Below are positions 10,801 through 27,465 of a DNA stretch of 38,998 bases, in pieces. Source of the stretch: Actinomycetes bacterium (GTDB lineage Bacteria; Actinomycetota; Acidimicrobiia; Acidimicrobiales; GCA-2861595); the NCBI GenBank assembly GCA_023264975.1, contig JAHFUS010000040.1, positions 1 through 38,998 of the forward strand, read 5' to 3'. Under the pieces are notes generated by a model. The model made no database searches, was not told the origin of the DNA, and was given only the letters and a program-made list of their open reading frames with translations. A program made the position numbers and the translations under genes. Numbering within the stretch: the stretch's first letter is position 1; each line of letters starts with the position of its first letter.

Positions 10801-11395
10801 CCACCTGGAACAGCCATCGCTCGTCTACGTTCTTGCGCACCGGGAGCTGCTCGTTGACCAGGAACAGGGTGACCAGCCAGCAGTTCGCGGTGCGGCGGCA
10901 GCGTCCCCGGACCACGACCTCTGGCTGGGTGGGGTCAGGCTTGAAAGGCCCGACGTCGCCGTCGGTCAGCGTCAGCGTAATCGGGCCGCCGGCCGGGTGG
11001 CGCTGCCACAGCCTCTCGTTGGCGCCGGTCGCGGTGGGGTCGGGATTGGGGATCTTCTCGTAGCGACCCCACGAAGCGGTGACCGTCAACGAGGTACAGC
11101 CTGACTCCACTGCGGCGGTGAAGCCGACGGACGCTGGGAACAGCACCACCTTGGCCGGCCGGTCGTCGGGGCCCGGCGGCCCGCCCTCGTCGCCGTCCTG
11201 AAGGTCGTCGCCGTCAGCCCGACTCGGGTCGACGATCGTGCCCTTCGGGGCCAGCATGCCCACCAGGTACCACTCCTGCACGGGCGAGCGGATGCCGGGT
11301 AGCTGTTCGTGGGGGTCGGCCGGCCCGAGCAGGTCGGTCAGCACCAGCCGCTCAAGTTCGGACCGCAGCTCCGCCGGCGACGCGCCCTCAGTCAT
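7843..11395 (-). CDS. drmA: DISARM helicase DrmA, one frame break
   Basis: Restored, this is about 1184 residues. The first part (ATG at 11395) runs to the Walker A motif FFPTGGGKTEAYLG (about residue 455) and shortly after changes frame at 9957-9970. The remainder continues as GEGGVGVLMRYTLRLL. It carries QDELHLIAGPLGSLFG (DExH box, near 716), a VASTATIRRA motif III and NMISVGVDVPRLG...QATSRVGR motifs V/VI. This is the superfamily 2 helicase DrmA, which binds DNA and works with DrmB. The break needs one base removed or two added. If real it would separate motif I from the rest and inactivate DrmA; if a sequencing error the gene is whole. The start overlaps the stop of the upstream small gene by 8 nt. 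Confidence 0.9.
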
Positions 11396-11705
11396 CGGGA
11401 TCCTCGGCGATCAGGTCCCAGTAGCCGGGGTCGAGCTCGTACGCCGCCAGCTCGACGACTCCAGGCTCGATCCTCACACCGACGAAAACGACCGGCCCGA
11501 ACACCGGGTCGACCACGTGGAGGCTGCGGACAGCGGGATGCCGGTCGTACCGGAAGGTGTCGAAGTCACGAAAAGCCACCACTGCGGCGGCGAGTGGCCC
11601 GCTCCAGAAGTCCCACTCCGATGGCCACCCCCCGGGCGAGCGCTCGGGTCCGTACTCCCGGGCGATGGCAGCGGCGAGGAGCGCGCCAACCCGGACCTCG
11701 ACCAT
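11388..11705 (-). CDS. Small protein between the Panacea gene and drmA, possible toxin
   Basis: This is a 105-residue protein starting 9 nt after the Panacea-domain gene and overlapping drmA by 8 nt, so it is translated with the DISARM genes. It has no signal peptide or membrane segment. The C-terminal half is strand-rich (VFGPVVFVGVRIEPG then ELDPGYWDLI) and very acidic at the end. I do not recognise a family. Panacea-domain antitoxins are known to pair with diverse small toxins encoded next to them, so a toxin role is a position-based inference only. It could equally be a DISARM accessory protein. Confidence 0.65.
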   Translation of the reverse strand: MVEVRVGALLAAAIAREYGPERSPGGWPSEWDFWSGPLAAAVVAFRDFDTFRYDRHPAVRSLHVVDPVFGPVVFVGVRIEPGVVELAAYELDPGYWDLIAEDPDD

Positions 11706-11714
11706 CAGCCGGCA

Positions 11715-12317
11715 TCAAACAAAGCCATACCGCTCGGCGACGTCGGACTCCAGGCGGGCGCTCACCTCGGTGACGACCTGGGGGAAGTCGAGGAATGCTG
11801 TCGCGAAGGGGATGGTCTCCCCGACCTCGGTGAGCCGCCACCCCGGCTCCTGGTGCGAAAGCTCGCTGACCTGCGTGCCCGTCATGCCCTCGAGCTGTTC
11901 GAGCACGTCGCCGACGCTGGCCAGCTCTACCTCGGTAAACAGGCTCATGACAGCGGGCCGCCGGGGCACGAGGCGCTGCTGCGGACGCCCCAGGAAGTCC
12001 TCCTCGACCAGCTCGGCCTCACCCGCGGCGAGCAGCCGCCGGCGGACCGGGAGGAGCTGGCGAGGCGCGGGGCCGTGCGGCAGCTTCTGGAACTCACAGC
12101 CCGAGATGACGGCGTGGTGGCGGCGCAGGTGGGTGAACTCGGCGAAGAACAGCACCTTGTTGAGCTTGGTGGCCCCGCCGGCCCGATCACCCCGGAGCCT
12201 GTCGGCCACGTAGACCAGCAACTCGGTGAACTTGGCCTCGTCGTAGTGAACGTCCACGGCCCCGATGCTACGAGGGGGGTGTGACATTTCGGCGGAGCCC
12301 CCTCCCGCCTGGCTCAT
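11715..12317 (-). CDS. Panacea-domain (SocA-like, DUF4065) protein
   Basis: This is a 200-residue protein. KFTELLVYVADRL, TKLNKVLFFAEF and FQKLPHGPAPRQLLPVRR are characteristic of the Panacea/DUF4065 family, whose members include the SocA antitoxin and many antitoxins paired with unrelated toxins. The chosen ATG overlaps the drmMI stop (ATGA) and has AGGAG 8 nt upstream. ATG at 12287 and GTG at 12257 are possible alternatives. It lies inside the DISARM operon, in the same direction, and is followed by a small unknown gene. This suggests either an embedded toxin-antitoxin unit guarding the operon or an accessory regulator. Its exact role here is unknown. Confidence 0.8.
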   Translation of the reverse strand: MSQAGGGSAEMSHPPRSIGAVDVHYDEAKFTELLVYVADRLRGDRAGGATKLNKVLFFAEFTHLRRHHAVISGCEFQKLPHGPAPRQLLPVRRRLLAAGEAELVEEDFLGRPQQRLVPRRPAVMSLFTEVELASVGDVLEQLEGMTGTQVSELSHQEPGWRLTEVGETIPFATAFLDFPQVVTEVSARLESDVAERYGFV

Positions 12318-15300
12318 AGGAGCGACTCCTGGCCGCCGCCGCCCTTGGCCGAGCGCCTCGCCGGCGCCTTCTTGGCCTTCTTGGCGTGGAGGCCTGCCGC
12401 CACCTCCGCCGCGTACCGCTCGTGGTTCAGCTCCAACAGCCGGTCGAGGAGCTCGTCCTTGGCCGCGGGGCTCACGGTGAACCGCATGCCCTGCGGCGTG
12501 TCCCAGTGGTGGTGGTCGAGCCCCAGGTCGCTCCACCCGTAGGCGTCCCGCACCGCGTGGTCGAGGACGACGTGCAACTCCCGCAGGCGGACGATGTCGA
12601 GATGCTGCTCGTCGGGATTGTGGACCCGGTTGTAGGTCTTGGTGAGCCCGAGATTGGTCCGGATCATCAGGTCAGCCCGAAACTCGTTGAGCTCCCGGCC
12701 GGCGGCGTCGATCGCCTCCCACCTCGGCCCCGCCTGCGGCTCGGGCTGCGCAAACGCCTCGAACACGTCCGACGGCGTGTAGCGGAGATTGCCGAGTCCA
12801 CCCAGTGTTGACGATCGCGTGGCTGCCCACCACCAGTGGAAACCACTCGACAGCAACCCGAAACTTGCATCGTCGGTGTACGCGAGACATACGGTCGCGT
12901 CCGAATAGACCGTGCCACAGGCGACGAACTGCACCTGAACAGTGGGAGTGTGGCGAGTCAAGACCAGCACTCGCTCGAAGTCAGCTATCGCGGCGTACAT
13001 CTCGGTACGGGGACGCCAGAACTGCCACCACCTCTCGGCCCACCCCGGGTAGCCAGTCTTCCCGTGGATCTCGTCGCGGACCCGTCGCTCGAGCTCTTTG
13101 AACGGCCCCGGGTACCGCTCCGCTCGCTCGGCGGGCCAGTCGGCGAAGTCGATGACCCACCGGCTCGCTTCCTGGGTGGGGTGGTCGTTCAGGTCCTGAC
13201 CGTTCAGGTATGGCTTGACCACGTCACGGCTGGACGGCTCGGCCGTCCTCAGGGCAGCAGCCTCGTTCGGGGACAAGATGAACGCCGGAGAGGCGAGGAT
13301 GCAACCCTGGAAGGAGCGATTCGCATTGACGGCGAGCCTCTCGGGCAGCCCCGCGACACGCCGCATCGCGTCAAGGGCGGTGTCGATGCCCGGCACGGGA
13401 GCGCTGCCCAGAACGGTCGACCCTGTCCACCTCGCCGACCACAGCCAGACCTTGGCGATCTCCAGATTGGCCTCGTTGGGCCAGGGCTCAGACTTCACGG
13501 CGCGATGGATCGTCCACCCGACGGACGTCAACCGATCCAGCCCGACCTCCCGTGTGTCGCCCTGGCTGATGGTGTTCGTGGCCAAGGTGCCCACCGAGCC
13601 GGACAGCTCGCACATCCGCAGCAGGAAGTAGGTGACCAGGTCGGCGTTGCCGGTTACGCCAGTGGCGATGGCCGCGACCAGGTGCTCCCGGTAGGCCACG
13701 CCATTCGCCCCGGAGATGCGCTTGCCACCCAAAAACGGCGGGTTGGCGACGATGGCGTCGAAGCCAGTCCGGCCCTCGGTCAGGAATACCTCAGGGAACG
13801 CCAGCGGCCAATGCAGGCATTGGCGGTCCCACGGCATCGGGGGTTCGTCGGGGAGGTCGGTGCGCAACCACCCGGTCGAGACGCCGTGGAGCACGGCCAA
13901 TGCCGCCTCCCGCTCGATGGCCGCCCGGTCGTCGTCGAGGGCGGTGCGGATGCGCTCCAGTTGCACGTCGAGTCTCGCCTCGACCGAGCCGCCACGCTTG
14001 CCCGCCGTGCTCAGCGCCGCACCGACGACCGCGTCGGCCACTACGGACAGGTCGGCCAGCCTGCCTCGCAGCTCCTCATGGAGCCGTTGCTTCTCGGCGG
14101 CGTCGCGCACCGTGACCACCGACAGCTCCTGGAGCCGGCGCGCCAGGTCGGAGGCCTCCTTGATGCGGATGTCGAGGGCCAGCGTGGTGAAACGTGCGGC
14201 GCCCTTGCGCTCGGCGGGGTCGAGGTGGAGCCAGCGGAGCTGCTCCATGTCGGTGATGCCGAGCAGGGAGTCGCCGACCTGGATGGCGTGGTCGAGGAAG
14301 GTGAAGGGCCTTTCCTTGGCCATGGTGGTGAGCCACAGAGAGAGCTTGGCCATCTCGGCCGCCACCGGGTTCTTGTCGACGCCGTAGAGGCAGTGGTCGA
14401 CCACCTCGCGCCGGGCCAGCACGGTCTGCTCATCGGCCGGGGCGGCGGCCAGGTCGGCCAACCGGCCGGCGAACGGACCCTGGCCCGGGCCGTGCTCGAC
14501 GACGGACTCGAGCAGGCGGTCGGCCAGGTACCGGCCGGCGGCGGTGAGGATGGCTCCGGAGCCCACCGCCGGGTCGCAGGTGCGCAGGTCGAGGATCTCC
14601 GCCGGGGTGCGAAGCTGCCAGCGCTCAGGGTCGGCCTCATTCTGGGGGCCGGGCTCATAGACCAGGGGCTCCAGGGCGTAGCGGACCACCTCTTCGGCCA
14701 AGGCTCTGGTGGTGTACTGCGCGCCCGTGTTGCGGCGGGTCGACGTCTGGGTGACGAACATCGACCCGGGCAGGATCACGACCGGGAGGCCGCGCAGGTC
14801 GGGCCGGATCAGGCCCCAGAAACCCAGCACCCGGGCAACGGTGTCATCGTCGTGCCCGCACGCCACCCGCAGGCGGGCCAACTCGACCCCCTCGGGCTGC
14901 CGGCCCAGCTCCTTCGTCAGCGCCGACGCCGTCTTGTTGCAACGCTCCTTGGCCGCCAGCCACTCGCACAGGGTGCCAGCGGCAGCGTGGCGTTCGAGGT
15001 CGGCGATCGAGATCTCGGGTTCGGCGCCCTCGGGGCCGACGAGCCCAAGGGCCAGGACATCGACCCGAGAGCAGCCGTGGTCGAGCAGACCCTCGTAACA
15101 GTGGCCGATCTGCTCGACGTCGAGGGCCTTGTAGCTGACCCGCTGGGCCACCGTCGACCGACCGGAGCGCACCTCGACCGTCAGTAGGGCGTCGAGGATG
15201 GCCAGCACCGTGCGGTCGTCAACGGCCACCGGACGGCCCGTCCCGAGAGCTGCATCGGCGGTCGGGTGACGGCGGCCTTCGAGGAAGGGGAACCGGTCGG

Positions 15301-16405
15301 GGTCGAACAGGCTCCCCCCGTAGGCGGGCAGGGTGAGGCGGTCGTGGTTGGCGCCGCCGTGCACGGCCCGGAAAGTGGCGAGGAGCCGGTGCCACGCCGT
15401 GGACCGTCGCTCGAGGGCGTCCTCGCCGTCGCGGGCGGCCGACACCCGCAGGTCGTCGCGCAAGCTGAGGACGGAGTAGGACTCGGCCCACAGTTGGTCC
15501 TCGGCGGGCAGGAGCCGGCGTTCCTCAGCGAACAGCAGGAACACCAGGCGCATGAGCACGGTGACGGCCGACTCGTAGACCTCGGTGGCGGCGACGTCGC
15601 CGAGCACCCCGCCGTGGTTGGCGACGTCATCCCGGGAGATGGCGGCCACCAGTAGCTCCACCGATCGCCGCACCGACCGCCCGAGGCCCTTGGTGATCTC
15701 GGCCTCGGCGTCGGCAGCCCGTTCGAACAGCCGCTCCAGCGTCTGGCCGGCCTCGACGGCGAAGAACCGGCGGGCGCCGAGCAGGGACACGAGGCCGGCC
15801 TGGAGGATGCGCTCGTCGGCCAGGTCGGCGAGCCGCCACCGGCACGAGGCCGCCGGCGCGCCCCTGGGCGCCCATACGAGTACCCACTGGTCGTCGTCGG
15901 TCACGACCGCAAGGGGCACGCCACCTTCCCGGCACCAGGTCTCGGCGCGCTGCACGGGGCTGGCCGGCCAGGTGTCGCCGGCCACCGCAATATCGGGCCG
16001 CCGGTCGAGGCGGGTGCCGAGCGGCCAGGCGAAGAGGCCGACGCGCACACTGGAAGGGTCATCGCCGTCGAGCAGGGCCTGGGCCGGCCGCAGCGTCACC
16101 CCCGGCTCGGCCGCCCGAACCACGGCTGTGGCGGGGATCCGCTGGTCCGAGGCCAGCAGGTCGCTCCACTCCAGCGCGTCGGCCAGCAGCCACCGGCGCA
16201 GGTCGGCATGGGCCATCGGGTCGCCGTCGAGGGATGCGACCCGGGCGCGCAGATCGGTGCGCAGCTCGGCGGGCATCGGGTCGAAGCCGTGGGGGAAGGT
16301 GGCGGTCAGCTCGGTGGTGGTGAGGAACGCTCCGTCGGGGTCGACGAGGTTCAGCCAGTCACCCAGGGCGGCCTTGGGATTGGCCTGCGGGCCGCGCCCT
16401 CTCAC
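12314..16405 (-). CDS. drmMI: DISARM N6-adenine methyltransferase DrmMI
   Basis: This is about 1363 residues. The SAM-binding motif DPAVGSGAILTAAG lies near residue 610 and the catalytic motif IV ANPPFLGGK near 886, as in large Eco57I/PglX-like adenine methylases. The C-terminal region holds the target-recognition part. The start is a GTG that overlaps the drmD stop (GTGA). The continuous frame through drmD to this gene exists only because drmD carries a frameshift, and the arginine-rich stretch upstream of this GTG is out-of-frame translation. DrmMI marks host DNA so that DISARM spares it. Part of the recognition region (about 12780-13560) is markedly lower in GC than the rest of the gene. 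The frame is intact. Confidence 0.92.
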   Translation of the reverse strand: MRGRGPQANPKAALGDWLNLVDPDGAFLTTTELTATFPHGFDPMPAELRTDLRARVASLDGDPMAHADLRRWLLADALEWSDLLASDQRIPATAVVRAAEPGVTLRPAQALLDGDDPSSVRVGLFAWPLGTRLDRRPDIAVAGDTWPASPVQRAETWCREGGVPLAVVTDDDQWVLVWAPRGAPAASCRWRLADLADERILQAGLVSLLGARRFFAVEAGQTLERLFERAADAEAEITKGLGRSVRRSVELLVAAISRDDVANHGGVLGDVAATEVYESAVTVLMRLVFLLFAEERRLLPAEDQLWAESYSVLSLRDDLRVSAARDGEDALERRSTAWHRLLATFRAVHGGANHDRLTLPAYGGSLFDPDRFPFLEGRRHPTADAALGTGRPVAVDDRTVLAILDALLTVEVRSGRSTVAQRVSYKALDVEQIGHCYEGLLDHGCSRVDVLALGLVGPEGAEPEISIADLERHAAAGTLCEWLAAKERCNKTASALTKELGRQPEGVELARLRVACGHDDDTVARVLGFWGLIRPDLRGLPVVILPGSMFVTQTSTRRNTGAQYTTRALAEEVVRYALEPLVYEPGPQNEADPERWQLRTPAEILDLRTCDPAVGSGAILTAAGRYLADRLLESVVEHGPGQGPFAGRLADLAAAPADEQTVLARREVVDHCLYGVDKNPVAAEMAKLSLWLTTMAKERPFTFLDHAIQVGDSLLGITDMEQLRWLHLDPAERKGAARFTTLALDIRIKEASDLARRLQELSVVTVRDAAEKQRLHEELRGRLADLSVVADAVVGAALSTAGKRGGSVEARLDVQLERIRTALDDDRAAIEREAALAVLHGVSTGWLRTDLPDEPPMPWDRQCLHWPLAFPEVFLTEGRTGFDAIVANPPFLGGKRISGANGVAYREHLVAAIATGVTGNADLVTYFLLRMCELSGSVGTLATNTISQGDTREVGLDRLTSVGWTIHRAVKSEPWPNEANLEIAKVWLWSARWTGSTVLGSAPVPGIDTALDAMRRVAGLPERLAVNANRSFQGCILASPAFILSPNEAAALRTAEPSSRDVVKPYLNGQDLNDHPTQEASRWVIDFADWPAERAERYPGPFKELERRVRDEIHGKTGYPGWAERWWQFWRPRTEMYAAIADFERVLVLTRHTPTVQVQFVACGTVYSDATVCLAYTDDASFGLLSSGFHWWWAATRSSTLGGLGNLRYTPSDVFEAFAQPEPQAGPRWEAIDAAGRELNEFRADLMIRTNLGLTKTYNRVHNPDEQHLDIVRLRELHVVLDHAVRDAYGWSDLGLDHHHWDTPQGMRFTVSPAAKDELLDRLLELNHERYAAEVAAGLHAKKAKKAPARRSAKGGGGQESLL

Positions 16406-19400
16406 GCCGGTTCCTCGGGGACGAGGATGGTCACGGCAGCCGGGAAGATGTGGCTCTCGGGGTCGGTGAAGCGCCGGCGGACGGCGGCCACCTCGCGCTC
16501 GATCTCGTCGGGGATCTCGCCGAGGCGCCGGCGCAGGGCGTCGAGGTCGCGCTGGGACTGCTCCCGTTCGGGCTCGTTGAACAGGGTGAGCTGCTCGGCG
16601 CGCTCGGCGTCCAGCCGGTCGAGGTCGGCGGTGATCTGGGCGGCGAAGCTCGTCCAGCACGGTGCGGATGGCCTCGGCCTCGGCCTCGGCCCGCTCGGCC
16701 AACTCCCGCTGCTTCGACTCCTGGACAGCCTCGGACCGGCGCTCCAGTGCCCGGGCCAGACCCGGCTCGACCACCCGGTCCCACCACTGGACGACCTCGT
16801 CTGTGCCCTGGGCCCCGTAGGGGACCCCGCCGGCGGACCGCAGGAGGGCATCGAGGTCACGCAACGTGTCGATCCGGGCGAAGCGCCCGGCCCGCAACCG
16901 GCCGCCGGCGACGACCAGCTCCTCGTGGAGGCGGTGCCCGTCGGCCCCGGTGATCACCAAGCGGGCGTGGCAGACCAGGCCGACGTCGCCGATCTCCAGC
17001 ACCTCGGCCCTCGGTGGGACCGTGCGAGCGGTCACCCGCGCCAGGTGCTGGCGGGCGCCCGTGGCCCAGACCTCCGAGCGCAACAGGCGCAGGGACTGGG
17101 CCACGAGGCGGTGGCCGAGGTGGCAGAAGACCACGTCGTCGCGTCCCTCCGCGCTCTTGCCGTCGAACGTGAAGGGCAGTTCGTCGCCCGAGAGGCGGTC
17201 GACCATCCCCTCCGACGTCCGCTGCCACGACCCGCTGAGCGGGGGCAGGCGGAACTCGCCGGCCGCGGCGGTGGGGACGAGCGCCGGCTGGTTGGCCACG
17301 TCGAGGGCGGTGGCGACCACCCGCTCCAGGCGTTGCGGCGTCAGGTCGAGGTCCTTGATCGACTCCTGGAGCCGCTCGTGGCAACGGGCCAGGCCCTCCC
17401 GGAGCTTGCGTTCGACCTGGAGCACCTTTGTGGCGGGCCGGCTGCGGGCCCGGTCGATGGAGTCGTCATCGATGGTGGTGCGCCGGCCGAGCATGGCGTC
17501 GCCCACCTGGTCGGCCAGCACGGCGCCGACCGAGCCGAGGTCGTCACGGATCTGCTCGACCTTGAACGCCACCTTCGAGAGGAACCCGAGCTCGGTGGCG
17601 AACGCGGACGCGTCGTCCTCCCAACCCTTGGGGACGAAGTGGCGAATCTCCACGAAGGGGTGTGGCTGGCCGTGGCGGTCGACCCGGCCGTTGCGCTGCT
17701 CCAGCCGGGACGGGTTCCACGGGATCTCCCAGTGGAGCATCCGCCAGCAGTGCCGCTGGAGGTCGATTCCCTCCGAGGCGGCGTCGGTGGCCACCAGGAT
17801 CCGCACCGGCGACCGGGACGGATGGGCCTGGAACTCGGCCTTGGTGCGCTCCCGGTCGTCGGAGTCCATGCCGCCGTGGATGGTGGCGATCCGCTCGCCC
17901 CCGTCGCCGCCGAAACCGTTGGTGAGGAGGAGGTCGACCAGCCACTTCTGGGTGTCCCGGTACTCGGTGAAGACGATGACCCGCTCGTCGTTCCAGGCGC
18001 CTCCCGGGGCGCGGCAGGTGGCGTCGAGCCACGCGAGGAGCACGTCGGCCCGCGCGTCGCGGCGGTGGCGGCGCGCCTCGACCCAGCTACCGAGGCGGTC
18101 GAGGATGTCCTTCTCTTCGGCGGTGAGCGGCTCCTGGCCCCGTGACGCCGTCGTCAGCACCTCGGCCACGACCTCGCCGGACTCGTCGTCGACCGCCTCG
18201 TCGCTGCTGCGGTCCCAGGCTGCCTGCATCTGCGCCTCGCTGGTGGGCGCTTGCCTCGTCGAGTGGTGGCGGTCGAGTGTGGTGCGGTGCTGGGCGAGCG
18301 TGTTGGCGAAGGCGACCGGCGACGACAGCAGGCGCTTCTTCAGCAGCAGCGTCACGAAGTCGGCGGCCGAGCGCTTTGATCCCTGGTCGTGGTGAGACCG
18401 GCGCAGATCGGCATAGCGCTCCAGCAGCGCGTGCGCATCCCGCTCGTCGGCCGGGTAGTCGACCGCCATCGCCTCCACCCGGCGAACCGGGAAGCGGGGA
18501 GTGCCGTCGGGGTTGGGAGGAAGCTCCTCACGCAGCTCCCGCTTGAGCCGGCGCACCAGCACCCGCGCCAGCTGCTCGGGGTTCGGAGGGATGTTTCGTT
18601 GGAAGCGCTGGGGGTCGAGGAGCTCGAGAAGGGCACCGAAGCTCTCCGGGTACCCGTTGTGGGGTGTGGCCGACAGGAAGAGGCGGTGCTCGCAGTGGGG
18701 GGCCAGGCGTTGAATCGCCCTGGTGCGCAGGGAGTCGACGGCGTAGCGTCCCCGGCCCGACGGCGCCGCCGAGTGGACCTCGTCGACGATCAGCAGGTCA
18801 AAGGTGCGAGGCGCCCGCCGGTGGTCGACCCCCGACAGCACCTCGTCGAGGAGGGACTGCGCCCGGCGGTCCTTGAGCCAGTCGATCGACACGATCAGTC
18901 GGGGGAACGAGGTGAACAGGTTGGCACCGACGCCGCGGTCCCGGCGAAGTTGCCGTACGGCGTCGGTGTTGATGATCCGGAACTCCAGGCCGAAGCGGTC
19001 GCGCATCTCCTCCTGCCACTTCACGCACAGGCCGGCGGGGCACACGACGAGCACCGTGCGGGCGCGGTGGCGCAGGAGGAGCTCCTGGACCACCAGACCG
19101 GCCTCGATCGTCTTGCCGAGACCGACGTCGTCGGCGATCAGCAAGTTGGCCCTCGGCATGCTCAGGGCCCGGACGACCGGGTCGAGCTGGTAGTCCTCGA
19201 TGGTGATGCCCGACCGGAACGGGGCCTGGAGGGCCCTGGAGTCGGCCGTCGCCACCGCCCCCCATCGGACGGCGTCGAGGAACGCCTCCAGCCGCTCCGG
19301 GGGATCGAGCCGGCCGGCGTGCGGCCTCGGCAGTTCCTGGTGCGGGATCACCTGGGTGCCCGACTCGAGCTCCCAGATCACCGCCAGCTCATCGCCGAAG

Positions 19401-19603
19401 CCGTCGTCCTCGAGCGACGACATGCGCACCAGATGCTGCGGGCGGGTTCCCGCGATCGGGTCGGGCGGGAGGGAAGACGGCGCGACCTCGTTGACCGCCC
19501 AGATCCGGTCGCGGCAGCGCACGACCTGGCCCAACTCGGGAACACCGATCTCCGCCGCTACGGCCGTCGTGCCTCCCAAGTGCTCAGGTCCTCCCGGCAA
19601 CAA
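16402..19603 (-). CDS. drmD: DISARM SNF2-like helicase DrmD, one frame break
   Basis: Restored, this is about 1067 residues. Visible motifs are Walker A DDVGLGKTIEAG (about 158-169), DEVH at 274-277, LSATPHNG near 310, FTEYRDTQKWL near 545, ATDAASEGIDLQ near 605 and EQRNGRVDRHGQ at 635-646, a full SNF2/superfamily 2 set. DrmD defines class 1 DISARM. Near 16647-16651 the frame shifts: after TVLDEL the true continuation is FAAQITADLDRLDAERAEQL in another frame, ending VPEEPA and TGA. One base must be removed or two added. All helicase motifs precede the break, so a truncated protein would lack only the last 80 or so residues. The start is uncertain: TTG at 19603 is the longest option, and a GGGAGG lies just inside it. 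Confidence 0.9.
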
Positions 19604-19716: not shown

Positions 19717-20121
19717 CTATTGGTGGAGCGCTAGCCCGGCGACGCCGCCGAAGACGGAGTCCGCCGTCAGCAGGGGCGCCATGATGTGGATGGCGGAGGC
19801 GGCGATCCAGAGGTCGTTGGCATGGACCCGGTCATGGAGGGCGTGACCGGCGAGCCGACAGGCGTGACGGAGTTCGGCGACCTCGGTGAGCAGCGTGTCG
19901 CTGACTGGCACGACCGTTGTCGCCCCGATGGTCTGCTCCAACCGGCGACGACGCTCGTCACCCCAGCCCGCGACCAGGGCGCCGTAGCGAAGCTCGGCAA
20001 CGGTGACCCCTGCGAGGAAGACCTGATGCCCGGCCATGAGCCCGACATGCGAATCGAACCGGGCACGCCGACGCCGGCTGATCGACGCGCTGAAGACGCC
20101 CGTGTCGACGAGGATCTTCAC
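19717..20121 (-). CDS. vapC: PIN-domain toxin, VapC-like
   Basis: This is a 134-residue protein. PIN-domain acidic residues are visible: D6 in KILVDTGVFS, E in VAELRYGA (about 43), D in HANDLWIAASA (about 102) and D in LLTADSVFG (about 119). These coordinate the metal in this ribonuclease family, whose members usually cleave tRNA or rRNA. The GTG start overlaps the stop of the upstream antitoxin gene by 4 nt (GTGA). The pair sits immediately upstream of the DISARM operon in the same direction, with a gap of about 110 bp, and may stabilise the mobile element. Confidence 0.88.
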   Translation of the reverse strand: MKILVDTGVFSASISRRRRARFDSHVGLMAGHQVFLAGVTVAELRYGALVAGWGDERRRRLEQTIGATTVVPVSDTLLTEVAELRHACRLAGHALHDRVHANDLWIAASAIHIMAPLLTADSVFGGVAGLALHQ

Positions 20122-20294
20122 GACTCAAGGGCAGTGGCGAACGCGTCGTCCTCGTCGTCGGACAGGTTCTCGATCAATAGGGCGTCAATCGATGCCAGTA
20201 CCGGGGCGGCCGCTAGCTGATCGTCGGTGAGATCGGCCGGCAGCAACGACGTTCCGTGCGGAGCCTGGCCCGAGTGTTGGACGGCGTCGCTCAC
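20118..20294 (-). CDS. Probable antitoxin of the VapC-like toxin
   Basis: This is a 58-residue acidic protein from a GTG start (VSDAVQHS...), ending in an aspartate/glutamate-rich tail, LSDDEDDAFATALES. Size, charge and the 4-nt overlap with the PIN-domain gene are those expected of a cognate antitoxin. I see no clear ribbon-helix-helix or AbrB DNA-binding motif at the N-terminus, so the antitoxin subfamily is not assigned. Longer in-frame starts exist upstream, but the extension is arginine- and glycine-rich and looks non-coding. Confidence 0.7.
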   Translation of the reverse strand: MSDAVQHSGQAPHGTSLLPADLTDDQLAAAPVLASIDALLIENLSDDEDDAFATALES

Positions 20295-20436
20295 GCCACC
20301 ATCGTACGCCCCGGTGGTGCATCGGCTCCAGCGTCGACCGGAGCGCGATGGGGGGTCCGGCTCGCTGGCTGAGCCCTCCGCTTCCCCGTGGCTCCCTACC
20401 TCGCCGGCGCTCACACCCCTTCCTGGTGGGCGCCGC

Positions 20437-20454: not shown

Positions 20455-20658
20455 CAGCGACACCCGGGCTGCCCCCTCCTCAAGCATGACCTACGGGTGG
20501 CGAACCTTTCGGACGCGGGCGCCGTCGTCGCTCCCTCTCGGTTCGGCGCTGCCAGTCCCCCTTGTGTTGACCCCGCCAGGTGGGGCGACCGAACGCCCGG
20601 AGCGCCATCTGCCTCACCTGACGGTGCTCCCGAAATTCTTGCACCGTCGCGCCCTGGA

Positions 20659-20689
20659 CGGGAGTACGCCAGGGAGTGAACCCGGGAGT
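20659..20689 (+). repeat. Three GGGAGT repeats at 12-bp spacing
   Basis: CGGGAGT, AGGGAGT and CGGGAGT start at 20659, 20671 and 20683, exactly 12 bp apart, ending about 45 bp before the ATG at 20733. The same heptamer recurs five times at 23927-24011. This position fits an operator or a small iteron set upstream of the maintenance operon. Confidence 0.6.
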
Positions 20690-20732
20690 AGCGGTCCCCA
20701 CAGTCGCGTCTATCCCTACCGAGGAGGACGCG

Positions 20733-21434
20733 ATGCCGTCGGTGTTCGACAAGTTGGAACAGGAGTGGGCTCGTCTTGCTCCCCGCTTCCCAGGCCAGGA
20801 CCTGGAAGCCATCTGCGCTGTGGTCGGTGCGACCACCCTTGGCGAACTCCACGCCTGGGTCCGCTCCGCCGACCGGTCCGAAGCCGACCGGGTGATGGCC
20901 CCCCTGGCGGAGCGGGCGGCCGCAGGGTCCGAGTCCGCGGCCCGGGTCCTCCTACAGCTCCTACTTCCCGGCACATGTCGGTTGGCCGCCTCGTGGTGGG
21001 CGCTCGGCGACGCCGAGGAGCGGGCGTCGGCCGCCGTGACCGCCGTCTACCAGCGGATCCGGAACTATCCCATCGATCGCCGGCCCACGAAGGTGGCCGC
21101 CAACATCCTGCTCGACGCCGGCCAGGACCTGTGGCGGGCAGCGAAGAAGCTCAACGCCGAGCGGACCCGGGTTGTGTGCGTCGACCCCGGCGCAGTCATG
21201 GCCCCCCGGCGCCACGTCGAGCCCCACCCGGCCGACGAGCTGGCGGAGGCCATCCACGACGCGGTGGCCGCCGGCCACATCGCTGCCGGCGACGCCGAGC
21301 TGATCGTGGCCACCCGCATCGAGGGTCGGCGCCTGGCTGACCTCGCCATCGAGCGCGGCGCCAAGCTGCGGACGCTGCAGTGGCGCCGCCAGGTCGCCGA
21401 GGCGGTCTTGGCCAGGACGGGGAGCGCGGCGTGA
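20733..21434 (+). CDS. Sigma-like / helix-turn-helix protein of the plasmid module
   Basis: This is a 233-residue protein from an ATG with GAGGAGG upstream. The central part (LLLPGTCRLAASWWALGDAEERASAAVTAVYQRI) resembles the helical region-2-like core of sigma-factor-like proteins found on actinobacterial plasmids. The C-terminal segment DAELIVATRIEGRRLADLAIERG, then LRTLQWRRQVAEAVL, looks like a region-4-type helix-turn-helix. A regulatory, DNA-binding role is inferred and no catalytic motif is present. Its stop overlaps the GTG of the next gene by 4 nt, so the two are co-translated. The upstream GGGAGT repeats may be its own or its partner's binding sites. Confidence 0.6.
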   Translation: MPSVFDKLEQEWARLAPRFPGQDLEAICAVVGATTLGELHAWVRSADRSEADRVMAPLAERAAAGSESAARVLLQLLLPGTCRLAASWWALGDAEERASAAVTAVYQRIRNYPIDRRPTKVAANILLDAGQDLWRAAKKLNAERTRVVCVDPGAVMAPRRHVEPHPADELAEAIHDAVAAGHIAAGDAELIVATRIEGRRLADLAIERGAKLRTLQWRRQVAEAVLARTGSAA

Positions 21435-21859
21435 GCGTCGGTCGGTCCCTGCGGGTCGTCGCCGCCCGTGCCGGGACTCCCCGCCACCCGCCGGGACGTT
21501 TCGGGCCCGACGACTGCTACCCGGTGGCCGTGTGGCTGCCGGTCCTCGGGCCAGCCGCCTTCGAGGGCTGGCGACATCTGGCGGGGCGGCTTGCCCACCA
21601 CCCCGAGGGCGTCACCGTCTCGCTTGCCGGCCTGGCCGTCGACCTGGGCCTCGGCTCGCCTCACGGCAGCCAGTCCGTCGTGCAGCGCACGCTGCGTCGC
21701 CTCGAGCGCTTCGGTCTGCTGCGGTGGGCGGGCGAAGACTGTGTCGTGGTCAGCGCACGACTCCCCTTCGTCTCCCCGGCCCAGCTGGCCCGGCTGGCCC
21801 CGACGGTGCAGGCCCGCCACCGGGTGCTGCACGAGCGCGCCACCAGCCAGGCGTGCTGA
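21431..21859 (+). CDS. Winged-helix protein, paralogue of the 24272 product
   Basis: This is a 142-residue protein. The WLPVLGPAAFEGWRHLAGRL segment is followed by a helix-turn-helix-like LAGLAVDLGL...VVQRTLRRLERFGLLR and a small beta wing (CVVVSARLPFVSP). The same order of segments appears in the gene at 24272, so the two are paralogues. Such small winged-helix proteins are frequent on actinobacterial plasmids and integrative elements, usually without known function. A role in replication control or copy number is possible given the iteron-like repeats nearby. The start is a GTG overlapping the upstream stop (GTGA). Confidence 0.65.
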   Translation: MSVGRSLRVVAARAGTPRHPPGRFGPDDCYPVAVWLPVLGPAAFEGWRHLAGRLAHHPEGVTVSLAGLAVDLGLGSPHGSQSVVQRTLRRLERFGLLRWAGEDCVVVSARLPFVSPAQLARLAPTVQARHRVLHERATSQAC

Positions 21860-22235
21860 GCCTCGGCGGGATGGCTGGCGACCACGACGATCACGCGCCG
21901 CACCACATGCTGGGTGGCCGCCTCGGGAGTGCGCGGAAGGAGTCCCGATCAGCGGCGCTGACGTCCGGCTGGTCGTCGGTCGTGCTCCCTCGCAGGGCTT
22001 CTCTGCCGGCGGGTAGGTGGTCGTCGGCTTTCGGGCGCCCACACTCCCACGGCCCCGCGCCGCGTCAACCGGACGGCTCGACCCACTCCCTCGCTGCGCC
22101 TCGCTCGCTAGGGCCGCTGCGCTCTCGCCTCGCCTGGGGCGCCGGTTGACCCGGCGCTTTCGGCCGTGGCGGTCGGGCTTCGCAGCCGACGGACCTCCCG
22201 CCGGCAGCAACCACCAAACGAAAGGAGCAACACCA
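21860..22235. other. Spacer before ssb with a long structured repeat
   Basis: No gene is supported. It holds one CGGGAGT heptamer (21924-21930) and a degenerate neighbour (21937-21943), the first copy of the duplicated approximately 80-bp sequence, and the ssb ribosome-binding site AAAGGAG at 22221-22227. Confidence 0.5.
22063..22150. repeat. Duplicated structured intergenic element, copy A
   Basis: About 80 bp beginning CGTCAACCGGACGGCTCG are nearly identical to 24089-24167, in the same orientation. In this copy the ends are inverted: GTCAACCGG (22064-22072) and CCGGTTGAC (22142-22150) can form a long hairpin. Both copies lie 85-110 bp upstream of a gene start in the replication module. The interior is rich in CTCGCTGCGCC-type words that recur in other spacers nearby. 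Confidence 0.75.
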
Positions 22236-22574
22236 ATGACCAACCTATGGATCGGCGTCGGGCGACTGACCCGGGATCCCGAACTCCGCTACGCCGAGTC
22301 GGGCCGGGCGGTGGCCCCCATGCGGGTCGCCGTGCCCCGCTCGGGCGACGACGGCGCCGACTTCTTCGACGTGGTCGCCTTCGGCACCCTGGCCGAGGCG
22401 TGCGCCGAGCACCTGGCCAAGGGCCGTCGGGTCCTGGTCGAGGGCAGCCTGCGCCACAACACCTGGAACGATACCGAGGGCGCCCAGCGCTCGAAGGTCG
22501 AGATCATCGCCAACCGGGTGCAGTTCCTCGACGCCCCCCGGCGCGACGCAGGTTCCGCCGAACCCGCAGCCTGA
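22236..22574 (+). CDS. ssb: Single-stranded DNA-binding protein
   Basis: This is a 112-residue OB-fold SSB. The N-terminus MTNLWIGVGRLTRDPELRY and the strands VAPMRVAVPRSG, DFFDVVAFGTLAEACAEHLAKGRRVLVEGSL and KVEIIANRVQFLD follow the bacterial SSB pattern. It is shorter than chromosomal SSBs and ends in EPAA without the acidic DDDIPF-like tip that recruits host repair proteins, so it is probably an element-encoded SSB for replication or conjugative transfer. AAAGGAG lies 9 nt before the ATG. It converges on the XseA-like gene, with a hairpin between them. Confidence 0.9.
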   Translation: MTNLWIGVGRLTRDPELRYAESGRAVAPMRVAVPRSGDDGADFFDVVAFGTLAEACAEHLAKGRRVLVEGSLRHNTWNDTEGAQRSKVEIIANRVQFLDAPRRDAGSAEPAA

Positions 22575-22622: not shown

Positions 22623-23696
22623 TCAGCGAAGCACCAGCGCGGCGAGCACGACGAGGGCCACGACGGCGAGGAGGGCAACCGTGCGGGCCCGGCGGGTGCG
22701 CGCCTCGGACGCCTGCATCCGCTCGGCATGGTCCTTGAGCACGAGTCGCTCGTGGCGGTGGTGCTCGAAGGCGCGCACCTGCTCGACCAGCGTGTGGGCG
22801 GCGGCCGAGGGAGTCGGGCAGCTTCGATTGGCCACCCGGTCGGCCACGGTGGCGTCGCTGGCGTGGCCGATGGCGGTCCACACCGGAACGGGGCACTCGG
22901 CGATGGCCCGGGCCACCACCTCGGCGTCGAAGCAGGCGAGCTCGCCCCGACCGCCTCCACCGCGGGCGATGAGGATGACGTCGGGCCGGGCCCGGCCCAG
23001 GTGCGCCAACGCGTTGGCCACCGCCGCGGGCGCGGCTGGACCGGCCATGGGCACCGACCGGCGCAGGACCCGCCACTCCAGGCCTGAGCCGTCGAGGACG
23101 GCGTCGAGGTCGGCGGCGGCTGCGGTGCCGGCGCCGGCGATGACACCGATGCGCACGGGCCGCCCCGGCACCACCAGGGCCGCCTGGGCGTCGAGGGCGC
23201 CGGCGGCGGCCAGCTCGGCCACCAGGGTGACGCGACGGGCGGCCACCTCGGCCTGCTCCTCGTGGGCCACCACGCTGCACCCGACGAGGCGGAACCCTCC
23301 CCATGGAGCGTCGAAAGACACCGCGCCGGTGACGCTCGCCCCCATCCCGTCGCGCAGCTCCCGCCCGTCGTCCGCCAGCGCCGCGTCCACCTCAGCCAGC
23401 ACGGAGGCGAACAGCACCACGCGCACGACCGCCACCGCCGTGTCGGCGCCATCGCGGTGCTCGGCCAGTTCGAAGCTGGCCCACCGGCCCCGCCGACGCA
23501 GGCCGGTCACCACCCCGGTGACGGCCACCGAGCGCAGGCCGGCGCGGCCCACGGCCGCCTCCAGGCGGGCGAATAGTTCCGTCGGGCTGCACGACAGCGT
23601 GTCGGCCTCGGCGGTGGCGCCGGGATCGAACAGCCAGATGACCCGGCCCTCGCCCCCATCGGCCTGGCCGGCCGGTCCGTTCGTGTGCGGTTCCAT
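22623..23696 (-). CDS. XseA-like protein with C-terminal membrane segment
   Basis: This is a 357-residue protein. An N-terminal OB-like region (VAVTGVVTGLRRRGRWASFELAE) precedes the exonuclease VII large-subunit core. ILIARGGGGRGELACFDAEVVARAIA, PVWTAIGHASDATVADRVA and TPSAAAHTLVEQVRAFE match XseA motifs in order, although XseA usually has GGGSxEDLxxFN. The long coiled-coil C-terminus of XseA is mostly missing. Instead the protein ends in a basic stretch and a hydrophobic helix (VALLAVVALVVLAALVL) that could anchor it in the membrane. No xseB is nearby. The start ATG has GAGGAGG 7 nt upstream; GTG at 23699 is an alternative. Nuclease activity is uncertain. A role in handling transferred single-stranded DNA is inference. 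Confidence 0.75.
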   Translation of the reverse strand: MEPHTNGPAGQADGGEGRVIWLFDPGATAEADTLSCSPTELFARLEAAVGRAGLRSVAVTGVVTGLRRRGRWASFELAEHRDGADTAVAVVRVVLFASVLAEVDAALADDGRELRDGMGASVTGAVSFDAPWGGFRLVGCSVVAHEEQAEVAARRVTLVAELAAAGALDAQAALVVPGRPVRIGVIAGAGTAAAADLDAVLDGSGLEWRVLRRSVPMAGPAAPAAVANALAHLGRARPDVILIARGGGGRGELACFDAEVVARAIAECPVPVWTAIGHASDATVADRVANRSCPTPSAAAHTLVEQVRAFEHHRHERLVLKDHAERMQASEARTRRARTVALLAVVALVVLAALVLR

Positions 23697-23926
23697 CACG
23701 CACCCTCCTCACCTTGCCCGGGGGACTGAGCCGCCCGGGAACGGGATGGACGCGATCAGCCCCGCGTCGAGGTCGGCCTCCATTGTACCGGGCGGGGCGC
23801 CGGCACCGGGGACCCGGACCACCTGCGCCCTAACGGCGCGGGAGGCGTCGCCGCGGGTCCACGGGCGACCGGCGTCAGGCCGTTTCCCATTCGGCTACGG
23901 CCCGTCCGATGAGGGCGCAGAGCGGA

Positions 23927-24011
23927 CGGGAGTGCCTCGGGAGTGGCGGAGCGGTCGCTCGGGAGTAGGCCATGACCCCGGTCGGGAGTGGCGGTGCGCT
24001 CCCTCGGGAGT
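23927..24011 (+). repeat. Iteron-like array of CGGGAGT, about 22-bp phasing
   Basis: Five exact CGGGAGT heptamers start at 23927, 23938, 23960, 23983 and 24005, so the spacings are 11, 22, 23 and 22 bp, close to one or two helical turns. Two copies extend to CGGGAGTGGCGG. Helically phased direct repeats of about 22 bp are typical of plasmid iterons bound by a replication initiator, and of some operators. Confidence 0.7.
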
Positions 24012-24088
24012 CCCCTCGCTCCGAGCGGGCATGTCGGAGGAGCCCTGGAGCTCGGCTGCTGCTCAACGCCTACCACGGCCCGTCGGGG

Positions 24089-24167
24089 CGTCAACCGGAC
24101 GGCTCGACCCACTCCCTCGGCTGCGCCTCACTCGCTAGGGCCCGCTTCGCTCTCGCCTCGCCTGCGG
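24089..24167. repeat. Duplicated structured intergenic element, copy B
   Basis: This is a near-identical direct copy of the element at 22063. It starts CGTCAACCGGACGGCTCG, with scattered substitutions and single-base indels in the interior. The outer inverted repeat is degenerate here (GGCGTCAACCG against CGGTGGACGCC). Confidence 0.75.
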
Positions 24168-24271
24168 CGTCGGTGGACGCCCCTTGCCCGGACCGTGGTC
24201 TTCGGCGCCTGCAGCCGAGCTTCCCGGGCCCCGGCCGCCACAGCACCGCCCGGGCGAAAGGACCTACTCCG

Positions 24272-24691
24272 ATGGAAGACACCGACATCCTCGCCTTCGA
24301 GGGCTGGCACGACCCGCTGCTCGACAGCTTCGGCCAGGACCCCGATGGCACCTACGCCCGCCTGGCGTGGCTGCCCATCATCGGGCCGAGTTCGTTCCTG
24401 GTGTGGGGCACGCTGGCCGCCCAACTGCGCCGGGAGCGCACGGTGACATGGCAGCTGGCCGACCTGGCCGCCGCCCACGGCCTGCAGCGAAGCTCGGGGC
24501 GCAACGGCATGGTGCGCCGGACGCTGGCCCGCCTGGTCCAGTTCCACCTCCTGGTCGAGTCCGACCCCGGGACCTGGCTGGTACACCTGTCCGCCCCGCC
24601 CGTCTCCCGTCGCCAGCTCGAGCGCCTCCCCGCCGTGGTGGCCGAGCTGCATCAGGCGGCGTTCCAGGCTCCCCACCGCCAGGTGGGGTAG
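24272..24691 (+). CDS. Winged-helix protein, paralogue of the 21431 product
   Basis: This is a 139-residue protein. WLPIIGPSSFLVWGTLAAQL, then LADLAAAHGL...MVRRTLARLVQFHLLVE and a short wing (WLVHLSAPPVSRRQLERLP), align segment by segment with the product of 21431-21859. The shared WLP(V/I)xGPxxF segment, predicted helix-turn-helix and C-terminal helix indicate a duplicated family. GAAAGGA lies about 10 nt before the ATG. Its upstream region contains the phased CGGGAGT array, so it is a candidate for the protein that binds it. That link is inferred from position only. Confidence 0.65.
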   Translation: MEDTDILAFEGWHDPLLDSFGQDPDGTYARLAWLPIIGPSSFLVWGTLAAQLRRERTVTWQLADLAAAHGLQRSSGRNGMVRRTLARLVQFHLLVESDPGTWLVHLSAPPVSRRQLERLPAVVAELHQAAFQAPHRQVG

Positions 24692-24805: not shown

Positions 24806-25669
24806 ATGGCGAACTTCTCATCCCTGAGCGCCCTGGCGCTGGCCCGCCGTGGCTGGCCGGTGCTCGCCTGCCACGACGGGCCGGTGTGCAGCTGCGGGCG
24901 AAACGGCTGTCCGAGCCCGGGCAAGCACCCCCGCACCCGGCGGGGCCTGTACGACGCCACCACCGACGCGGCCACCATCGCCCGCTGGTTTCAGCGCTGG
25001 CCGAGCGCCAACCTGGGCGTGCGGACCGGCGCCCGGCCTGACGGAGCGGGCCTGGTGGTGCTCGACGTCGACCCCGCCCACGGTGGCGAGGCGGCGCTGG
25101 CCGAGCTGGTGGGCCGCCACGGCGCACTGCCGGTCACCCTGGAGGTGGCCACCGGTGGCGGCGGGCGCCACCTCTACTTCGCCCACCCGGGCCGGGCGGT
25201 GGCCAACAGCGCCGGGCGCCTCGGTGCCGGCCTCGACGTGCGGGGTGACGGCGGGTTCGTGGTCGTGCCCCCGAGCCGGCACCCGAGCGGCGCCCGCTAC
25301 CGCTGGCGGCCGGCCCCGGTGGCCGACCTGCCCGGGTGGTTGCACACGCTGCTGCTCCCCGTCCCGGCGACGCCCCGGCCCGCACCGGTGACGGTGGCCC
25401 GGCCGAAGGCGTGGGCGGCGGCGGCGCTCGCCGACGAGGTGGCGAACGTGCGGGGCGCGGGCGAGGGTGTGCGGAACCACACACTGAACCGGGCCGCCTT
25501 CGCCCTCGGCCAACTCGTCGGCGGAGGGCACCTGCCCGAGGCCGACGTGGTGGCATGGCTGCTCGACGCCGCGCTGTCGTCGGGGCTGGGTGAGCACGAG
25601 GCGGCGGCCACCATCGGGAGCGGCCTGCGGGCCGGGGCCGGCCGCCCCCGCCACCCGGTGGCCCGGTGA
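24806..25669 (+). CDS. Bifunctional DNA primase/polymerase
   Basis: This is a 287-residue protein of the prim-pol family (PF09250-type). N-terminal cysteines lie in CSCGRNGC-PSPGKHPR (28-43), the typical CxC...C-PGKHP start. The catalytic acidic pair is D87 and D89 in VVLDVDPAHGG, and the conserved GGGGRHLYF strand follows near 127-135. The C-terminal helical region contains NHTLNRAAFALGQLV. Such enzymes prime replication of plasmids, phages and integrative elements, which fits the neighbouring SSB and iteron-like repeats. GGAGG lies 8 nt before the ATG. No C-terminal helicase domain is fused, so a helicase would have to come from elsewhere. Confidence 0.9.
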   Translation: MANFSSLSALALARRGWPVLACHDGPVCSCGRNGCPSPGKHPRTRRGLYDATTDAATIARWFQRWPSANLGVRTGARPDGAGLVVLDVDPAHGGEAALAELVGRHGALPVTLEVATGGGGRHLYFAHPGRAVANSAGRLGAGLDVRGDGGFVVVPPSRHPSGARYRWRPAPVADLPGWLHTLLLPVPATPRPAPVTVARPKAWAAAALADEVANVRGAGEGVRNHTLNRAAFALGQLVGGGHLPEADVVAWLLDAALSSGLGEHEAAATIGSGLRAGAGRPRHPVAR

Positions 25670-25950: not shown

Positions 25951-26154
25951 ATGAACACCCCTGATCGACGGGCCGAGATCCACGACCGGCTGGTGGACGC
26001 CGTGGAGGCGATGGTGTCCGGAGCCGACTGGCAGCGGCTGTTGGACCTGGGACGGCGTTTCCACGCCTACTGGACCGGCGTAAGTGGCATATCCGAACTG
26101 TGTGAATGCAGTCGCCGACATCAGGCGGAGGGCTGGGAAGCATTGGTGAGGTAG
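25951..26154 (+). pseudogene. ArdC-like antirestriction protein, N-terminal fragment
   Basis: From an ATG with GAGGAG upstream, the first 41 residues (MNTPDRRAEIHDRLVDAVEA ... LLDLGRRFHAY) match the start of the ArdC-like ssDNA-binding domain found on actinobacterial plasmids and integrative elements. After FHAY (about 26072) family proteins continue with SxxNxxLI, but here the frame runs 26 unrelated codons to a stop. The rest of the gene, including the expected metallopeptidase part, is absent. The break marks the left edge of an inserted or substituted segment that carries the permease, crcB and the recombinase operon. Confidence 0.65.
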
Positions 26155-26219
26155 GCCGTTTCCAGCGTGACCACCTGCTGACCGAGGCAACACGCTGGCG
26201 ACGCCCGGGCTGGACGACC

Positions 26220-26993
26220 ATGGTGGGGGCCATGCTGACTTGGCCCACCGCCGTCCTGGCCGGCTGCTGTATCGGTCTTCTGATGGGCTTTTTCGGCGTG
26301 GGGGGTTCGTCGGTGGCCACCCCTGTTCTGTCGCTTCTCGGCGTCCCACCCTTGCTGGCGGTTGCGTCCCCGCTCCCGGCCACGATCCCCGCCGCGATGT
26401 TGGCCGCTTCCTCGTATGTCCGGAGGGGCGAAGCCCGACCACGCGCCGCTGCTTGGTCATTGCTCGGGGGCGTCCCGAGCACGATCGCAGGCGCTTTCGC
26501 GTCGCGATGGGTCGGTGGCCGGGCACTGTTGGTCACCTCTGGACTTGTGCTGGTCGTCGTCGGGGCCCGGGTTCTGCGCCCGGTCGACGAAGCTGCACGA
26601 GCCGCCGGGAACCGGCGAAGACTGAACCGGCCGGTGCTGGTAGCCGCCGCTGGTGGCGTTGGATTCTTCACCGGGCTACTCGCCAACGGGGGAGGCTTCC
26701 TGCTCGTTCCGCTCTACGTGCTGGTCTTCGGCCTTCGCATGCGACAAGCAGTTGGCACCAGCCTGGTGGTCGTGGCCGGTCTCTCCGTGCCGACGCTCGG
26801 TGTCCACTGGGCACTCGGCCATATCGACTGGGCCGTAGCCGTCCCCTTCGCAGCGGGCGTCCTGCCCGCCAGCCTCGGCGGCAGCGTTTTGGCCCAGCGC
26901 ATCCATGGTCCGGCCCTCCGACGAGCCTTCGGCTTGTTCCTCGTCGCCTTCGGCCTGTGCTTCACCCTCCTGCGTCTTGTCGGCGTGGCCTGA
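26220..26993 (+). CDS. TauE/SafE-family (TSUP) membrane permease
   Basis: This is a 257-residue integral membrane protein with about eight hydrophobic segments in two halves, each starting with a glycine-rich motif: LLMGFFGVGGSSVATPVL near the N-terminus and GFFTGLLANGGGFLLVPLYV in the middle. This duplicated GxGGG pattern is typical of the TSUP/TauE-SafE family, which exports sulfite, sulfoacetate or related anions. The substrate here is unknown. The start is ATG 26220 or 26232; no strong ribosome-binding site decides it. It converges on crcB with a small hairpin between them. As cargo beside a fluoride exporter it may belong to an anion-resistance pair. Confidence 0.85.
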   Translation: MVGAMLTWPTAVLAGCCIGLLMGFFGVGGSSVATPVLSLLGVPPLLAVASPLPATIPAAMLAASSYVRRGEARPRAAAWSLLGGVPSTIAGAFASRWVGGRALLVTSGLVLVVVGARVLRPVDEAARAAGNRRRLNRPVLVAAAGGVGFFTGLLANGGGFLLVPLYVLVFGLRMRQAVGTSLVVVAGLSVPTLGVHWALGHIDWAVAVPFAAGVLPASLGGSVLAQRIHGPALRRAFGLFLVAFGLCFTLLRLVGVA

Positions 26994-27005
26994 CAAGTGA
27001 GGCGC

Positions 27006-27031
27006 AAGCTTTCGGGAAAGACCGAGAGCTT
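27006..27031. terminator. Hairpin between convergent genes
   Basis: AAGCTTTCGG and CCGAGAGCTT pair at 9 of 10 positions around a 6-nt loop, between the stops of the permease (+) and crcB (-). It is a likely two-way terminator. Confidence 0.5.
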
Positions 27032-27102
27032 CAGCGACGGGTCGAAGCCTCGAAGACCTGAGGATCGAACCCCCGTTGGCCTCGGCGAAGTTGAGGCGAG
27101 CA

Positions 27103-27465
27103 CTACACAATGGCCCGGCCGGCCGCGTATCCGAGGGCGGTGCCGGCGAGCCCGCCGACGACCGAAAGGGCGACGTAGCTGACCGCCGCCGCCGCCTGCC
27201 CCGTCCGCAGCAGTGTGAATGTCTCGTAGCCGAACGTCGAGAACGTGGTGTACGCGCCGAGCAGCCCCACTGCGACAGCGGTCGTGGCCGTAACCGGCCA
27301 GCGAGAGGCCCCGGGGCCGGCGAGCACGAGGGCGAGCACGAAGCAGCCGGAGACGTTGATTCCGAGCGTTGCCCACGGAAACGAGCGCATCCCGACTGCA
27401 ACACCGATTCGGTAGCGAATGACAGCGCCGATCGCTCCGGCGATCGCCACCATGAGAGTGGGCAT
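27103..27465 (-). CDS. crcB: Fluoride exporter CrcB/Fluc
   Basis: This is a 120-residue, four-helix membrane protein. GAIGAVIRYRIG at the N-terminus, GINVSGCFVLALV, and TTFSTFGYETF in the third segment are the conserved Fluc motifs. The two phenylalanines and the asparagine region line the fluoride path in this family. Fluc proteins are dual-topology dimers, so one gene can suffice. GAGGAG lies 7 nt before the ATG. A fluoride riboswitch lies directly upstream on the same strand, which supports both the function and fluoride-inducible expression. Confidence 0.93.
   Translation of the reverse strand: MPTLMVAIAGAIGAVIRYRIGVAVGMRSFPWATLGINVSGCFVLALVLAGPGASRWPVTATTAVAVGLLGAYTTFSTFGYETFTLLRTGQAAAAVSYVALSVVGGLAGTALGYAAGRAIV

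Follow-up and report, generated by a model that had tools for sequence, protein, structure and literature searches.

A CGGGAGT repeat array between replication genes of an Acidimicrobiales genome: plasmid origin or distal operator of a sigma-like regulator?

What is the function of five identical heptamers in a non-coding gap between replication genes? The question is raised by a stretch of DNA of an Actinomycetes bacterium of the order Acidimicrobiales (contig JAHFUS010000040.1, positions 1 to 38,998; this whole stretch of 38,998 nucleotides is called the window below and all positions refer to it). The original prediction, made from the sequence alone, read the heptamers as plasmid iterons that mark a likely origin or, alternatively, as a master operator. 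The control of replication and transfer has hardly been studied in elements of these actinobacteria.

Results and discussion

Five heptamers in a gap between replication genes

The word CGGGAGT is present in five exact copies, all on the plus strand, that start at positions 23927, 23938, 23960, 23983 and 24005 (array B); the copies are spaced by 11, 22, 23 and 22 bp, exactly as had been predicted. The number of CGGGAGT words in the window is ordinary (14 copies, 10.45 expected), but in none of 150 dinucleotide shuffles of the window did a 7-mer attain five copies inside 85 bp. An imperfect duplication of 45 bp (30 nucleotides at 90%) underlies two of the 22/23-bp steps, and 7 bp are constant per 22. 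An origin of the array by chance, or by a recent duplication without function, would account for these two steps but is extremely improbable: it leaves unexplained the clustering, the match of the word to a promoter array elsewhere in the element and the recurrence of the layout in relatives (the last two described below).

Array B lies in a gap of 572 bp (23700-24271) between a gene for an XseA-like protein on the minus strand and gene 24272 on the plus strand, with a gene for a single-strand DNA-binding protein (SSB) on the left and a primase/polymerase gene on the right, and its description as a non-coding region flanked by replication genes is fair. The features are listed here, with genes named by their first position:

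23927..24011, plus strand: array B, five CGGGAGT, proposed distal operator, none of the copies followed by a -10-like element
21431..21859, plus strand: small protein, paralogue of 24272 (36% identical), overlaps the end of gene 20733
22236..22574, plus strand: single-strand DNA-binding protein (SSB)
22623..23699, minus strand: exonuclease VII large subunit-like (XseA-like) protein
24272..24691, plus strand: small protein, winged-helix-like (predicted, low confidence)
24806..25669, plus strand: bifunctional DNA primase/polymerase (prim-pol), 287 amino acids

The motif is oriented toward gene 24272, whose start codon is 261 bp away. Genes 24272 and 21431 belong to an unnamed family that is a core-genome gene: it is present in 89 of the 99 genomes of the order, and a further copy in this genome adjoins an ssb gene on another contig (C49). 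A structure model of 24272 from two sequences (pLDDT 58) has a winged-helix-like order of elements; searches with this model returned nothing significant, with the DnaB primosome protein and an MDR plasmid initiator as weak matches (E 0.3-0.9). A protein search of the genome contigs and viral contigs identified no relatives of the 24272 or the 20733 protein.

In iteron plasmids, a motif that is common to the origin and to the initiator promoter is typical. Array B could be such an origin, at which either the 20733 protein or the winged-helix protein 24272 would act as initiator, open the DNA and recruit the prim-pol, with the second array of the element (array A, see below) being autoregulatory. 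Like iteron origins with their autoregulated Rep proteins, the locus combines direct repeats in helical phase, located in non-coding DNA next to the genes for SSB and prim-pol, with a related site at the promoter of a regulator; the winged-helix-like model of 24272 with its weak primosome and initiator matches, and a plasmid record of Iamia without a recognisable Rep, fit as well. However, the GC content of 50-bp windows across 23700-24299 is 0.62-0.84, with no A+T-rich stretch beside the array, no consensus DnaA box is present anywhere in the window, and comparison of the module proteins with Pfam, NCBIfam and PHROGs produced no match to an iteron-type Rep. The constant part of the repeat is also short for an iteron (only 7 bp of each 22), relatives have their array B inside the coding sequence of a relaxase, and many family members of 20733 are chromosomal and have the same repeats but no replicon. 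The reading as plasmid iterons and likely origin was thus not borne out and we consider it unlikely; array B or 24272 may still have some part in replication initiation or partition. An RNA element is unlikely too, as single-strand folding of the arrays and leaders revealed no strong structure (z between -1.7 and 0.7).

The same word precedes a sigma-like gene

Across the 3.78-Mb assembly, the pattern CGGGAGT-N3-18-CGGGAGT is found at array B, in the region before gene 20733 and in one pair on contig C86, and nowhere else. The C86 pair was rejected as a further non-coding cluster because it sits inside a coding region, leaving the region before 20733 (array A) as the sole other non-coding CGGGAGT cluster of the genome. 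Array A consists of CGGGAGT at 20659, AGGGAGT at 20671 and CGGGAGT at 20683, in 12-bp steps and directly upstream of gene 20733; array B is 3.2 kb downstream of it. The last heptamer is followed after 9 bp by the hexamer CACAGT. The features of this region and the related sequences further downstream are:

20659..20689, plus strand: array A, CGGGAGT/AGGGAGT/CGGGAGT, upstream of the sigma-like gene
20699..20704, plus strand: -10-like CACAGT, at +13/+17 from the A of the last repeat (the fixed distance of the family)
20733..21434, plus strand: sigma-like protein, 233 amino acids, with an additional N-terminal part; candidate for binding both arrays
21924..21930, plus strand: single CGGGAGT upstream of ssb
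22044..22150, plus strand: shared block, copy in the ssb leader, contains a reverse-oriented AGGGAGT (89% identity to 24070-24178)
24070..24178, plus strand: shared block, second copy, between array B and gene 24272

The leaders of ssb and 24272 thus have a block of about 107 bp in common (89% identity). When the CGGGAGT pattern was searched in viral contigs, 34 loci were found, none of them with a 20733 homologue.

Gene 20733 founds a family related to ECF sigma factors

The 20733 protein has no Pfam match above the curated cut-off and no match in NCBIfam or PHROGs, and no phage record matches it. Of 98 genomes of the order, 14 were found to have homologues. A profile from an alignment of 14 sequences (A1) was used to search 395 genomes of the class and had matches in 98 of them, the weakest of which cover the sigma part only and resemble true ECF sigma factors. 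Individual family members are weak in Pfam, and the family profile matches ECF sigma factors of solved structure, CnrH (E=8e-7) and RpoE (E=4e-4), over positions 54-235. Because this alignment spans both sigma domains (region 2 and region 4), the family is, judged by its sequence profile, sigma-derived: it is related to ECF sigma factors but has diverged from them, and it has an additional N-terminal part. Gene 20733 is the founder of this unnamed family. Structure matches obtained with the single-sequence fold of 20733 were discarded as meaningless (pLDDT 48).

Family members have direct repeats followed by a -10-like element

For 72 members of the 20733 family, exact direct 6-mer repeats were counted in the upstream 160 bp. 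Repeats at a lag of 12 are present in 50 of the 72 regions, compared with a mean of 4.1 (maximum 11) in shuffled sequences and 4/72 in a coding control, although the family sequences are related by descent and the counts not independent. Lags of 11, 24 and 36 are likewise elevated; no other lag is, apart from a marginal rise of lag 23 at 7-mer length. By a stricter criterion, 17 of the 72 members have no clear repeat. Upstream of 24272 homologues, lag-12 repeats were found in 2/19 cases.

The repeated word differs between lineages (GGTGAG, GCTGAGG, GTTGAGG, GACAGGG, GGGGAAG, CGGGAGGT, CACGAC) and often has a G-A core. A motif sampler placed xAxxxT after the repeats, with the A in 56 and the T in 58 of the 72 regions (counts from an optimised alignment). 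When the register was set by the repeats alone, A at +13 and T at +17 were found in 17/42 regions, compared with 5 or fewer at any other offset; the window instance of this xAxxxT is CACAGT at 20699-20704. The repeats are found in changing gene neighbourhoods, and many members are on conserved chromosomal loci with no replicon.

In a search of 12 genomes for a regulon with GGTGAG pairs, the matches were mostly coding-looking. Among the GGTGAG pairs elsewhere in genomes of chromosomal members, none of the examined plus-strand loci had a -10. At the sequence level, a wider regulon was not seen for these members.

Two further observations concern the upstream regions. In several chromosomal members from genomes of family f7 (L087-L109), 6-7 bp separate the -10-like element from the start codon, which suggests leaderless transcripts. 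A short A+T-rich, palindrome-like word (AGAAATCT/GAAATTTC) is often found 10-30 bp upstream of the direct repeats: it was seen at many 20733 homologues, for example L060, L064 and L187, and in the window at 20640-20685.

Similarities to ECF and SARP promoters

The arrangement resembles two known types of promoter. The repeat core of the family, GGNGAG, may be loosely like the -35 boxes of ECF sigma factors, and the likeness of the proteins extends to both sigma domains aligned by the family profile. In contrast to ECF factors, the 20733 family has the extra N-terminal part and tandem sites instead of one -35, and the distance from the last repeat to the -10 is about 10 bp, while the gap between -35 and -10 of ECF promoters is 16-17 bp.

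The second type are SARP boxes, in which the direct repeats follow each other at 11 or 22 bp and the final one is separated by 8 bp from a weak -10, for example CACTGT (PMC10936776). Like array A, the SARP boxes of Streptomyces (the afs box of AfsR, those of DnrI/ActII-ORF4) are heptamer-like repeats over the -35, and the -10 of afsS, CACTGT, compares with CACAGT at array A (PMC10936776). Measured against the SARP spacing of 11/22, array B has 11, 22, 23 and 22 bp and array A 12 and 12. The differences are that the linked regulator here is sigma-like, whereas SARPs are OmpR-type with BTAD, that the spacing in the 20733 family is mostly 12 bp, and that array B has no -10.

Array B might accordingly be read as a conventional SARP-type or class II operator at a promoter for 24272 and prim-pol, to which the sigma-like protein or a SARP of the host would bind. 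Its 11/22-bp spacing is exactly as reported for SARP boxes (PMC10936776) and the motif is directed toward 24272, but a -10-like element at the family distance follows none of the five copies and the start codon of 24272 is far off (261 bp). In addition, no BTAD protein is encoded on the contig with the arrays: the three of the host are on other contigs (C69, C130, C136). We regard this reading as very unlikely.

Relatives on MobF elements have two arrays with the same word

Five relatives on MobF-type elements have two arrays each, one at the promoter of the regulator and one inside the relaxase gene. In 8 genomes searched for GGGAGGT-N5-GGGAGGT, 16 of 17 matches are in elements with the sigma gene or in the related relaxase region, while a reversed-pattern control had 1 match over all 8 genomes. 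In three genomes the pattern is almost exclusively found in two groups, A upstream of the sigma-like gene and B in a large gene, the product of which matches TrwC relaxase and an AAA helicase. Where the sigma-like gene adjoins the relaxase, the arrays are paired about 1.2-1.4 kb apart; a further G288 contig has retained the B array in a related relaxase region, and L188 has single GGGAGGT copies near 6680-6731. A sister lineage uses another word, with three copies of CACGAC at the promoter and about four of CACGAT/CACGAC inside the relaxase gene. This layout is found in a chromosome (L059) and in the complete 77-kb plasmid NZ_CP050949 of Iamia sp. SCSIO 61187 (mobF is HC251_RS24910, the sigma-like gene HC251_RS24925), whose record lists no recognisable Rep.

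In every relative with two arrays, the word of array A recurs in the array B of that element, in the orientation of the sigma-like gene. A -10 is absent after the B copies that were checked by eye (the last copies of L059 and L060 and one in L187). The spacing in relatives, on which the original prediction had made its reading depend, is kept at 12 bp and multiples.

In MobF elements, array B is about 0.5 kb into the relaxase gene, near an inverted repeat. This near-invariant inverted repeat, CAGCAGGTTTCCCGGAGGGAAACCTGCAAATGTGTGCGCGCCGG, is at the start of the MobF relaxase genes (L060:5170-5250, L064, L187 and L188; alignment A2) and is likely an oriT. It was searched in the window and not found.

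The 10-12 bp direct repeats of parC double as operator of the binding protein ParR. By analogy, array B could be the site of a partition or transfer complex, where the regulator coats two sets of repeats, as ParR does on parC, with autoregulation as a by-product. The repeats of 11-12 bp do form both a probable autoregulatory operator and a separate cluster, and the closeness of the B array of MobF elements to the oriT-like inverted repeat would suit a role in transfer. However, none of the module proteins scanned, a subset of the open reading frames, is ParA/ParM-like, and no partition ATPase (ParM, ParA, TubZ) was recognised among them; the regulator is of another family than ParR, the oriT-like repeat has no trace in the window and chromosomal family members have no such partners nearby. 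A partition or transfer site is therefore quite unlikely.

Array B as a proposed distal operator

Array B fits the second, non-promoter type of array of the relatives, which has no -10. As the same word is present in A and B and the arrangement matches the layout of the relatives, we read array B as a distal, non-promoter operator of the element's own sigma-like regulator 20733, an explanation that on sequence evidence has a somewhat better than even chance of being correct. That array B is a second docking site of 20733 is most likely when compared with a classic plasmid origin. Of the original alternatives, it is the master operator that gained support: the word also forms the promoter array of 20733, and relatives keep the two-array layout with lineage-specific words. 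Two features of the window argue for caution: the spacing in array B does not keep the strict 12 bp, and its position differs from that of the relatives' B, as it is 3.2 kb downstream of A, in front of 24272/prim-pol and outside any relaxase gene.

We infer that the 20733 protein is the binder of the arrays, because the word is linked to this gene across the class in changing neighbourhoods; the 24272 and 21431 proteins are also common to these elements and remain candidate binders. The 20733 protein would bind short direct repeats one or two helical turns apart. At array A, the repeats occupy the place expected for a -35 and are followed by the -10-like hexamer (20659-20704), and 20733 probably controls its own transcription in the fashion of a SARP activator or class II regulator. 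Array B would be a second foothold before 24272/prim-pol and behind the divergent exonuclease gene, on which 20733 may act, probably jointly with site A by looping or oligomerisation. Bound there, 20733 would make the expression of these replication genes depend on its own abundance; looping, a roadblock or co-regulation of replication genes are possible roles. The regulation may be activation or repression.

A more general model is tentative and, in our view, somewhat less probable than not: an ECF-sigma-derived family of proteins in Acidimicrobiia-type actinobacteria may no longer be ordinary sigma factors but regulators that bind direct repeats and that, on mobile elements, use a second array, even one within the reading frame of the relaxase, to link their own expression with transfer and replication. 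If true, such sigma-derived, repeat-binding control of transfer and replication has no description in the papers that could be searched. The distal-operator reading connects a repeat array without a name to a regulator family that is likewise unnamed and that up to a quarter of the genomes sampled from the class contain, and it predicts an operator code of lineage-specific word, 12-bp step and fixed -10. Arrays inside a relaxase gene that share the word of the regulator promoter are unusual; looping, roadblocking or relaxosome control would be predicted for these.

Other observations at these loci

At L062:2403-2555, four tandem repeats of 43 bp are located between divergent sigma-like and winged-helix-like genes. 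Upstream of array A, the window has a DISARM class 1 defence cluster on the minus strand (5259-19603) with DrmC (5259-6008), DrmB (6005-7846), DrmA divided between two frames that overlap (7843-9921 and 9815-11395) and DrmD and DrmMI both matched within a single long open frame (12314-19603). The division of DrmA and the junction between DrmD and DrmMI point to frameshifts, either real or assembly-derived. A PIN-domain protein with a small upstream partner (19717-20342, minus strand) is probably a toxin-antitoxin pair. Genes for a TauE/SafE exporter and a CrcB-like fluoride channel (26106-27465) are found near the integrase and are probably cargo.
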